Shown: positions 15,910 to 26,712 of the stretch, one piece after another
Numbering within the stretch: the first letter of the stretch is position 1
How the letters are laid out: each line of letters opens with the position of its first letter
DNA from: Cetobacterium sp. ZOR0034
Lineage (GTDB): Bacteria; Fusobacteriota; Fusobacteriia; Fusobacteriales; Fusobacteriaceae
DNA: 42,874 bases
Assembly: GCF_000799075.1 (NCBI RefSeq)
Contig: NZ_JTLI01000016.1
Location: forward strand, 1 to 42,874
Reading direction: 5' to 3'
Made by a program: the position numbers and the translations under genes
Notes under the pieces: model-generated
Seen by the model: the letters and a program-made list of their open reading frames with translations, nothing else
Database searches by the model: none
Told to the model about the DNA's origin: nothing

Positions 15910-18678
15910 TTATAATTTTTCTTCAAATTCATCCTTTGTTATAGGTTTACTAAATATATAACCCTGTCCTATCCTTACATTAGAACTAGCTAGGAATAGT
16001 AATTGTGCTTCAGTTTCAATTCCCTCTGCAACAATCATAACATTTAAATCCTTCACAAGACCTATAAGTGCACTATAGATATTAGAAGCTACTAAGTTAT
16101 CCTTTGTTCCTATGGCATCTAGTATACCTTTATCAAATTTTACAACTTCAAGTGGTAAAAGTGGAAGTAAACTAACTGTGGAATGCCCTGCTGTGAAATC
16201 ATCCATAGCGAGAGATAATCCGAGTCTTTTTAATTCATCTATCTTCAATAGTGTAGTTTTTAAATTTGTTGAGAAAATCGATTCTGTTATTTCAACTTCT
16301 AACCATTTTCCTAAAACATCATTTTTTTCTAACAGCTCTTTTATCTTTTGAACAACATCGTCTCTTTCTAAAGTATTCATAGAAAGATTGAATGACAACT
16401 TAAACTCATCATCAACTAACTCATTCTCTTTTAAATCCCTAATAAACTTTATAGTCTCATCAGCTATTTTATAATCCACTAAATGAATCAGATTTATCTC
16501 CTCAGCTATTGGAATAAACTCAGCTGGTGATATAAATCCTAGCTCTTTATCAGACCATCTAGCTAAGCTTTCTCCACCAATAACTCTCTTTGTTTTTATA
16601 TCAAACTTTGGTTGATACACAGCATAAAGTCCTGATAAATCTTTATTTCTTAAAAGAGATTTTATCGAATACTCTCTCTTCTTTATTTTTAAAAGCTCCT
16701 CTGTTGCTTCTAAATAATAAGTTCCATTTCTTTTCTTTGCTTCCTCCATAGCCATATAAGCATGTTTAAAAGCATTTTCTAAATCCTCTGTTCCACTCTT
16801 TTTATAGTAACCTATACTCAAATCTAATTGATATGCTAACTTCAAAGCTTTCAATTCCTCTTTTAAAGAGTTTAATCTCTCTATTAAAAACTCCTCTTGA
16901 ACAAATACATCAAACTCATCTCCAGAAACTCTATAGATATACTGCTCTGGGAATATTTTTTTTAAACACTGTCCTACAGCTTTTAAAAGATAATCTCCAG
17001 ATGCTTGACCATATTTGTCATTTATCTCTTTAAAGTTATCAATATCCATAGTTATTGCATATCCTTTTAAAATTTTTCTCTTTGAAATAAAATTCAAAAA
17101 CTCCGTTCTATTTGGCAGTCCTGTAATTAAATCTTTTTTTAACTCTCTTGTCACTTTATAGTTTGAAAGAATCTTATAGATAGAAGCCATTCCAAGTAAG
17201 CATGAGATTCCTAGCAAAATATACAATATTTTGTTTGTCATTTGAAACTTCTGATATTCATTAAAAGCTTCCTGCTTTTTTATTATATTCGCTTCCTCTT
17301 CTAATTTTTTTAGATTTAATCCATTCTTTATCCCCTTATTTAAAATGTTTGTTAACATCGCATCCTCTTCATGAAGAGCTAAGGAGATTGGTATTTTTAC
17401 AAATTCATCAACTCTGAACTTGCTCGTATCCATTTTATTTATATCAAATTGTAGCGCTGTGTTTATCTCATGTCTATTTAAAGCTTTTTCTAATTGATCA
17501 TAATTTCCATACAGCTTTATATCCCCATTTGAATAGAAATCCCTTGCAAACGTCTCTTCTACAGATCCTTTTACAACGCCTACTTTAGTATTATGAGTAT
17601 AAAAGCTCGATATTTTATACAAAGTTGGAGTATATATCGCCTTTGTAAATATTAATTTCTTATTCCACTCTTTATTCTCTGGAAGAGGAACAATTCTTAT
17701 TTTTTTATTTAAAAAATCTGCATAAGTATTGTTCCAATTATTATTTTTGTCATTTATTATTTTAAATTTTATACCTGTTCTTTTTGATAAGTTTTCAATA
17801 AAGAATGGTATAACACCAATAAATTTATTCAAACCTTTAGAGTAATAGCTCAAAGTATGATTTGAATCTAAAGCTATTGAGATTTGTGATAATCCTTGAA
17901 GATAAACCTTCTCCTCATCTGTCAAAGAGGACATAAATTTATTTTGATATGTTATATGTGTTCTTCTTTCTAAATGTCTATTTATTTTACCTTGGTACTT
18001 TTCTAAAAGAGCATTATTTATAATCTCTATTAAATCTCCTAGCTCTTTTTTGAGTGCTATTGACACATCTGGAAGATAACCAACTTTTATGCTTTCATCC
18101 CAACTCAAGACATTATATTTAGATGTTAAAAAAATCTTATCTTTTCTTTCGTAACTATCTTTAACTTCTATAATCTTTGCATCTATATCATTATATTTTA
18201 AAAATTTTTCTAAATACTCAATATAAAGAGAGCTTTCTGTTGCATATATCTCTTTTCCATTTAAAGATTCTAAATTATTTGGATCAAATTTCCCCTTACT
18301 TGAAGATGAAATATATATTAAATCGTCATATATAGGTAAACTGAAAACAGAACTTTCTTTTCTCTGCTCGTTTTGAGTCATTGTTCCCATGATATCAATC
18401 TCTTTATTTTTATAAAGTGTGATTACCTCATTCCAATCGCTCTTTATTACTCTGATATTCAAATTTAGATAATCTACTAACATCTCTTCAATTATACTAT
18501 TCAAAGACTCTCCATCAATCATAGTATTATCAAAATCTGATGATTTTAATCCTAAAACCAACTGACGCCCTTTATAACTCTCTAATATCTTTTCCTCTTT
18601 AGTATTTTTTGGTATGTAGTTAGCAGAAAATATAATCTGAGTTAATAAAAGAAAATACAATACAAAAACCTTTCGCAT
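15910..18678 (-). CDS. GGDEF-EAL c-di-GMP protein with tandem SBP_bac_3 sensor domains
   Basis: A protein of 922 residues. Signal peptide (MRKVFVLYFLLLTQIIFSA), two periplasmic binding-type-2 domains (about 30-250 and 265-470), a membrane span near 483-505 (ILYILLGISCLLGMASIYKI), then GGDEF and EAL domains. The GGDEF domain begins with DLITGLPNR and has SGDEF (near 585) in place of GGDEF; SGDEF variants can be active. The EAL domain reads GGESLARW (near 701, Ser for Ala) but keeps the other catalytic positions: SFNLS, ITES, MDDFTAGHS, VKFDKG, VAEGIET and GQGYIFSKP. A working phosphodiesterase is therefore likely and cyclase activity possible. The layout repeats that of the HD-GYP protein. The ATG at 18678 has a GGGAGG site and its own strong promoter. 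Confidence 0.92.
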   Translation of the reverse strand: MRKVFVLYFLLLTQIIFSANYIPKNTKEEKILESYKGRQLVLGLKSSDFDNTMIDGESLNSIIEEMLVDYLNLNIRVIKSDWNEVITLYKNKEIDIMGTMTQNEQRKESSVFSLPIYDDLIYISSSSKGKFDPNNLESLNGKEIYATESSLYIEYLEKFLKYNDIDAKIIEVKDSYERKDKIFLTSKYNVLSWDESIKVGYLPDVSIALKKELGDLIEIINNALLEKYQGKINRHLERRTHITYQNKFMSSLTDEEKVYLQGLSQISIALDSNHTLSYYSKGLNKFIGVIPFFIENLSKRTGIKFKIINDKNNNWNNTYADFLNKKIRIVPLPENKEWNKKLIFTKAIYTPTLYKISSFYTHNTKVGVVKGSVEETFARDFYSNGDIKLYGNYDQLEKALNRHEINTALQFDINKMDTSKFRVDEFVKIPISLALHEEDAMLTNILNKGIKNGLNLKKLEEEANIIKKQEAFNEYQKFQMTNKILYILLGISCLLGMASIYKILSNYKVTRELKKDLITGLPNRTEFLNFISKRKILKGYAITMDIDNFKEINDKYGQASGDYLLKAVGQCLKKIFPEQYIYRVSGDEFDVFVQEEFLIERLNSLKEELKALKLAYQLDLSIGYYKKSGTEDLENAFKHAYMAMEEAKKRNGTYYLEATEELLKIKKREYSIKSLLRNKDLSGLYAVYQPKFDIKTKRVIGGESLARWSDKELGFISPAEFIPIAEEINLIHLVDYKIADETIKFIRDLKENELVDDEFKLSFNLSMNTLERDDVVQKIKELLEKNDVLGKWLEVEITESIFSTNLKTTLLKIDELKRLGLSLAMDDFTAGHSTVSLLPLLPLEVVKFDKGILDAIGTKDNLVASNIYSALIGLVKDLNVMIVAEGIETEAQLLFLASSNVRIGQGYIFSKPITKDEFEEKL

Positions 18679-26183: not shown

Positions 26184-26213
26184 AAAAACTCCTTTATTTT
26201 TGAAGGAGTTTTT
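26184..26213. terminator. Bidirectional terminator between Mga-like gene 2 and the small wHTH gene
   Basis: AAAAACTCCTT (26184-26194) pairs with AAGGAGTTTTT (26203-26213), giving T-runs on both strands. It overlaps the stop codon of the minus-strand gene (26212-26214). Confidence 0.88.
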
Positions 26214-26505
26214 ATATTTTTACAATTTTTATAAATTTAATTTTACTGTATAAATCTTTTCCTATCTTTGTAGGATGAATTTTGAATACTCTTTTGTCAT
26301 CAAAAGTTCCAAACTTTTGTATAAGTTTTTCCTCTTCTAACTTCTTTAAACATAATGACACAGATCCTTTTGATAACTGCATTCTTTTTGTCAACTCACA
26401 TAATGTAATTCCTGGAGTTTCGTTTATCGTAAATAGTATCTCCTCTTGAGTATAATTGATATGATACTTCTTTAATTCATTTTTAATCTCCATCTTTTTA
26501 CACAT
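26212..26505 (-). CDS. Small MarR-like winged-helix regulator under c-di-GMP riboswitch control
   Basis: A protein of 97 residues that is nearly all one winged helix: YTQEEILFTINETPGITLCE, LTKRMQLSKGSVSLCLKKLE (recognition helix), then wing LIQKFGTFDDKRVFKIHPT. It lacks the long dimerising helices of full-size MarR proteins (about 140 residues). The ATG at 26505 follows an AGGGGTG site. About 95 bases upstream begins a c-di-GMP-I aptamer in the same orientation, itself behind a good promoter, so this gene is very likely a direct c-di-GMP-controlled output. Its own targets are unknown; the neighbouring TRAP/glucuronate operon and the Mga-like genes are only positional candidates. Confidence 0.8.
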   Translation of the reverse strand: MCKKMEIKNELKKYHINYTQEEILFTINETPGITLCELTKRMQLSKGSVSLCLKKLEEEKLIQKFGTFDDKRVFKIHPTKIGKDLYSKIKFIKIVKI

Positions 26506-26597
26506 AGTAACACCCCTAATATTAAAAGTTTTTGACTCTATAAAACAGTTGTATTTTTATAAAAAAAAATACACCTATATTATGAGTTGTTCATAAC

Positions 26598-26680
26598 TAA
26601 GTGCAACTGGCTGCCATTTTAAAGGCCCTATAGCTTTGCGTCATAGAGTTTCCTCTACTTTGCCGTATTTATCTTTCGGT
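26598..26680 (-). ncRNA. Cyclic di-GMP-I (GEMM-I) riboswitch
   Basis: Read on the minus strand, the class I signature appears in order: GGCAAAG; a helix GTAGAG-GAAA-CTCTAT capped by a GNRA tetraloop; the near-invariant ACGCAAAGCTATAGGGCC; the receptor side ATGGCAGCCAG; and the closing GTTGC. These are the conserved elements of c-di-GMP-I aptamers, in the form typical of clostridia. An outer helix ATGAGTT / AACTCAT (26689-26695 with 26582-26588) could enclose the aptamer if transcription began further upstream; with the promoter at 26684-26712 its 5' strand would lie in the promoter. Downstream the only gene on this strand is the small winged-helix regulator. The expression platform is not clear: a UTATGA-type hairpin and a T9 run (about 26551-26597) suggest transcription control, but pairing is weak. 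Confidence 0.88.
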
Positions 26681-26683
26681 ATT

Positions 26684-26712
26684 ATTATAACTCATTTAGG
26701 ATATTTTTGCAA
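26684..26712 (-). promoter_or_regulatory. Promoter of the riboswitch-regulator transcript
   Basis: Minus-strand TTGCAA (26707-26712), 17-base spacer, TATAAT (26684-26689). The predicted start near 26677 places the aptamer at the very 5' end of the RNA, as expected, giving a leader of about 170 bases before the ATG at 26505. Confidence 0.75.

Follow-up and report, generated by a model that had tools for sequence, protein, structure and literature searches.

Some described c-di-GMP riboswitches control other regulators. In Vibrio cholerae, the Vc2 c-di-GMP-I riboswitch controls the transcription-regulator gene tfoY, whose leader contains this class I aptamer, and so relays c-di-GMP into a second regulon (PMC11218506). 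In C. difficile, c-di-GMP riboswitches head operons with SigD and the response regulators CD630_32650 and CD630_32670 (PMC6200980), and all of the functional class I riboswitches (7/7) are OFF switches (PMC6366702). Control in the ON direction, via transcription read-through, is represented by the Bc2 c-di-GMP-I riboswitch, which lies upstream of cap in Bacillus thuringiensis (PMC6366702). The Geobacter GEMM-Ib riboswitches, which belong to the same aptamer family, use antitermination ON logic as well (PMC6456294), with an A at position 20 and cGAMP as ligand.

We analysed a stretch of 42,874 nucleotides from Cetobacterium sp. ZOR0034 (hereafter, the window), in which a c-di-GMP-I aptamer precedes the gene of a 97-residue MarR-type protein, here called mini-MarR. 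Cetobacterium is a bacterium of fish and animal guts, and the locus yields a c-di-GMP circuit, specific enough to be tested, in a fusobacterium associated with the gut. It resembles Vc2-tfoY in that the leader of a regulator gene contains a class I aptamer, but TfoY is not a MarR protein, and V. cholerae riboswitches act without transcription termination (PMC6366702), unlike the terminator layout found here. With the C. difficile systems it shares the control of regulators that relay the signal, whereas in C. difficile a sigma factor and response regulators have this role, encoded within larger operons, and the functional class I switches there are OFF while the window switch is predicted to be ON. 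The predicted logic is that of Bc2, although Bc2 controls an adhesin directly and the window switch precedes a regulator. With respect to the Geobacter riboswitches, the window aptamer has a G, and not an A, at the discriminating position.

A preliminary description of this DNA had suggested that a riboswitch feeding a small transcription factor would pass the second-messenger signal into a secondary regulon. The idea is reasonable, but its implied novelty was overstated, considering the Vc2-tfoY and C. difficile SigD/response regulator precedents. A c-di-GMP riboswitch controlling a regulator and a class I ON switch acting via read-through are already known; what is new is that such an aptamer is paired with mini-MarR, that nine Cetobacterium species conserve the pairing, and that the genus has a near-uniform layout predicting ON control. 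Among open-access papers we found neither a precedent for a c-di-GMP/GEMM riboswitch with a MarR gene of this kind nor a paper linking Cetobacterium with c-di-GMP riboswitches.

The aptamer and its leader

The covariance-model search of the window gave one Rfam family reaching its gathering score, RF01051, which matched the minus strand at 26674-26599 over model positions 1-87 of 87 with 57.7 bits (E 7.6e-9), far over the gathering score of 35 bits. The c-di-GMP-I assignment of the preliminary description therefore passed the covariance check; the sequence blocks that it quoted were all found on the minus strand, and its interval, 26505-26712, is correct, with the -35 box at one end and the start codon at the other. 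By sequence, the window aptamer is a c-di-GMP-I aptamer, with c-di-GMP as its predicted ligand, and is one of seven in the source genome. The source genome gave no match to the c-di-GMP-II riboswitch, but since the control was equally silent, the absence of this class is unproven. The features of the locus are collected in Table 1.

Table 1. Features of the mini-MarR locus, in window coordinates.
Feature	Position	Strand	Basis
Predicted sigma-70 promoter, TTGCAA-17-TATAAT	26684..26712	-	Consensus, 10/12 matches
c-di-GMP-I (GEMM-I) riboswitch aptamer	26599..26674	-	RF01051, full model
G at the presumed Vc2 G20 equivalent	26664..26664	-	Rfam consensus alignment
C at the presumed Vc2 C92 equivalent, common to aptamer and terminator stem	26603..26603	-	Rfam consensus alignment
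Terminator hairpin, 5' arm overlapping the aptamer 3' edge	26570..26605	-	Fold; orthologues have the same layout
Terminator U-tract, 9 T	26561..26569	-	Sequence
Shine-Dalgarno-like AGGGGTG	26511..26517	-	Sequence
97-aa mini-MarR winged-helix protein gene	26212..26505	-	PF01047; orthologues in 8 other genomes
Terminator just 3' of the mini-MarR stop codon, terminator-like on both strands	26184..26213	-	Hairpin

Equivalents of both c-di-GMP contacts are present in the window aptamer, as G 26664 and C 26603, which we take to correspond to Vc2 G20 and C92, the numbering being mapped via the Rfam consensus. In Vc2, C92 is the Watson-Crick partner of the ligand, and the G20 equivalent selects c-di-GMP over cGAMP. 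The A20G change shifts selectivity to c-di-GMP (PMC6456294).

A riboswitch score says nothing on binding, and the ligand contacts do drift in the genus, since three leaders have an A and three a C at the G20 equivalent; the aptamer might then sense another cyclic dinucleotide (cGAMP), or have lost ligand binding and left the leader a simple attenuator. We hold this to be very unlikely for the window, because its aptamer and those of all mini-MarR orthologues keep the G, which goes with c-di-GMP selectivity (PMC6456294). The variant leaders are L007/L140 (G000 C49:55326-55402), L097 and L105, with C, and L109, L126 and L133, with A. By analogy with Geobacter, the A variants may prefer cGAMP; for the C variants we know of no ligand preference.

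c-di-GMP is probably made in the source organism, considering that 14 GGDEF matches in its genome clearly exceed the cut-off and a fifteenth is borderline; many of these matches have an intact GGDEF, GGEEF or SGDEF motif. In the window itself, 15910-18678 (minus strand) encodes a protein of 922 aa that ends in a GGDEF domain with an SGDEF motif and whose N-terminus resembles that of the L002 SBP_bac_3 protein; its gene has no riboswitch in front.

The predicted promoter ends about 10 bases before the aptamer, with the RNA start expected at about 26677. By itself, the consensus scan carries little weight (9 sites vs. 6.6 in shuffles), but a TATAAT-like box lies directly 5' of the aptamer in 7 of 8 orthologous leaders and is unclear in that of G003, in keeping with the promoter proposed earlier just upstream of the aptamer. 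The Shine-Dalgarno-like AGGGGTG is kept in 8/9 orthologous leaders and is GGGGAG in G003. Since a terminator-like hairpin directly follows the stop codon, mini-MarR is probably transcribed alone, as a one-gene transcript. In G003, the aptamer begins within the last codons of an Mga-like gene and has no clear promoter of its own (L090:4100-4370, G003 C33), so that this riboswitch may lie inside a longer transcript.

Further upstream, the window contains at 26785-26735 (minus strand) the element CCTAATCCTAATAATATATA and, after it, a strong inverted repeat, GACAGGGTGG...CCATCCTGTC. In sister species a cold-shock gene precedes this element: CCTAATCCTAATAATATATA comes after its stop codon, and the hairpin is its terminator. 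The window has no such gene at this place. CCTAATCCTAATAATATATA was rejected as a regulatory repeat, as it has one copy in the source genome and follows the cold-shock gene in sister species.

The terminator and the predicted direction of control

Just 3' of the aptamer the leader reads UGCACUUAGUUAUGA-acaac-UCAUAAUAUAGGUGUA, followed by nine U. This terminator (26605-26561, minus strand) has a folding energy of -12.9 kcal/mol (z -4.66), and none of 200 dinucleotide shuffles was as stable. Its 5' arm starts within the aptamer and pairs the C92 equivalent. Since the terminator arm uses the C that pairs with the ligand, the ligand-bound aptamer and the terminator are predicted to be mutually exclusive, from which we infer an ON switch by antitermination. 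Control of the gene by the aptamer, as claimed in the preliminary description, is supported by an expression platform in cis, the terminator, and by a gene linkage conserved in nine genomes, but that description had named neither a platform nor a direction, which the terminator implies to be ON.

We consider it probable that promoter, c-di-GMP-I aptamer, antitermination ON switch and a DNA-binding mini-MarR made at high c-di-GMP form one circuit. The promoter (26712-26684) would make a leader RNA that folds the aptamer. In the ligand-free RNA, the aptamer's 3' border (UGCACUUA...) would be captured as the 5' arm of the terminator, and transcription would stop at 26561-26569. At high c-di-GMP, the ligand would pair with the C at 26603 and stabilise the aptamer, which would block the basal half of the terminator stem, so that RNA polymerase would read through and the mini-MarR DNA-binding protein would be made.

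In folding calculations, the local hairpin had an energy of -9.7 kcal/mol, which weakened to -4.5 or -0.2 kcal/mol with the 3' strand of P1 blocked. When only G20 and C92 were reserved in the full-leader fold, most of the terminator stayed (-27.1 vs. -28.2 kcal/mol), and the hairpin was lost only once the P1 strand was also taken. Because reserving the two contacts alone leaves most of the terminator, switching in this model rests on P1, which in the window aptamer is short and AU-rich, or on kinetics.

The small thermodynamic gap between the two states of the window leader would also suit a genuine c-di-GMP-I riboswitch of the opposite direction, in which ligand binding favours termination, the mode of the C. 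difficile class I riboswitches, every functional one of which is OFF. This appears improbable to us, since no competing antiterminator was seen in the leader and the terminator arm itself includes both the P1 strand and the C that pairs with the ligand. This overlap holds across the genus: 54 of its c-di-GMP-I leaders could be folded, and 48 of these 54 paired the C92 equivalent in a U-tailed hairpin (mean z -5.7 vs. shuffles). The upper terminator stems of the genus leaders vary in sequence between species, with the pairing kept. In the orthologue of G011, the predicted terminator leaves the C92 equivalent free.

We also observed a U/A hairpin after the terminator, the U-tract being followed within a few bases by an A-run, in the window (26569-26549, minus strand) and in the 8 orthologous leaders (9/9).

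The mini-MarR protein and its linkage to the aptamer

The MarR-like gene of the preliminary description was confirmed, the open reading frame at 26212-26505 matching PF01047 with 42.5 bits with respect to a curated cut-off of 24.6 bits. All 38 PDB sequence matches (38/38) are MarR-type or related winged-helix regulators, and the best are all of the MarR family. Mini-MarR aligns to about residues 20-110 of MarR chains 138-179 aa long. The full-length MarR fold, of about 140 aa with N- and C-terminal dimerisation helices, was not found, these helices being largely absent. The AlphaFold2 model, of low confidence (mean pLDDT 67.8), shows the expected helices and leaves the wing unresolved. These comparisons indicate that the protein is a MarR-type winged-helix domain protein and not a standard full-length MarR; from its family, it would bind DNA.

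Among 61 related genomes, a mini-MarR orthologue occurs in 8 other genomes of the genus, with 57-94% identity. In all Cetobacterium genomes that have it (9/9), an RF01051 match lies directly upstream on the same strand, and the conserved CCAG block ends 77-129 nt before the start codon, so that the linkage claimed earlier for this gene proved to be kept at every orthologous locus. G001, G004 and G005 have neither the orthologue nor the pair, which is found in at least nine Cetobacterium species. By coordinates, no aptamer lies near the more distant MarR proteins outside the genus in the 61-genome sample. The locus always adjoins large HTH_11/Mga-like regulators.

Typical MarR proteins are longer than mini-MarR by about 45 residues, and it aligns with their central part only; it could thus be the remnant of a MarR protein in decay, or have no role as a DNA-binding regulator, in which case the riboswitch would control nothing important. 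This we find hardly credible: the orthologues are under strong purifying selection (dN/dS 0.006-0.084), the nine species share 40 invariant columns and the same length of 96-98 aa, and the riboswitch is conserved before the gene. As the nine loci keep the pair under such constraint, the comparison indicates that the aptamer-mini-MarR linkage is selected, not accidental.

Paralogues of mini-MarR of about 80-93 aa, without a c-di-GMP riboswitch, are encoded at G009 C2:146285-146509, G009 C1:246299-246487 and G006 C1:46594-46824.

Possible targets and the c-di-GMP-I leaders of the genus

The operator search in the orthologous leaders, in which those of G007, G008 and G009 were judged by eye, found no palindrome conserved before the mini-MarR genes. 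One palindrome, ATATTGTTGCAAAAATAT, covers the -35 box, but only in G000 and G010; mini-MarR might regulate its own gene there. A second copy with 0 or 1 mismatch was not found in the genome, the 0-mismatch site occurring only at the mini-MarR promoter. Limited to two species and lacking a second copy with fewer than two mismatches, ATATTGTTGCAAAAATAT was rejected as a regulon operator, and with no conserved palindrome either, no regulon is proposed. The likeliest guess for the targets, by analogy, is surface-adhesion genes, because most other riboswitch targets of the genus are of that kind.

Cetobacterium genomes carry up to eight c-di-GMP-I riboswitches each. Of these riboswitch leaders in the genus, 58 were read; apart from the Pfam-tested cases, their targets were sorted by eye according to resemblances between N-terminal sequences. 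On this basis, DUF4402-like secreted proteins of pilin type follow about 16 of the 58 leaders (Pfam tested on two), SBP_bac_3 sensor proteins follow 12, a number of these presumably carrying GGDEF, and PapD-like chaperone genes follow 9 (Pfam tested on one). Mini-MarR follows 9 leaders, an Mga-like regulator 2, a small secreted protein with a different platform 4, and others or unread targets 6. Judged in this way, the riboswitches of the genus act directly for the most part on adhesion and signalling genes, as they do in other bacteria, and no other regulator is as widely shared a target as mini-MarR. Nearly all c-di-GMP-I layouts of the genus predict ON control of surface proteins and sensors.

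A wider reading is that c-di-GMP-I ON switches form one set across the genus, within which the conserved mini-MarR, without the usual dimerisation helices, would be a common relay to riboswitch-free genes, possibly with the neighbouring Mga-like regulators, one type of which has its own riboswitch in two species. We put this forward tentatively, as possible but rather doubtful.

The riboswitches of the Mga-like regulator, at G000 C49:59011-59089 (L001/L139) and G010 C18:13354-13429 (L137), have the same terminator layout; in G000, no more than about 3.7 kb separates it from another riboswitch, that of a chaperone/pilin-like operon. Finally, the leaders before the small secreted protein of about 105 aa (L096, L110, L115 and L121) are without the usual overlapping terminator and seemingly use another expression platform.
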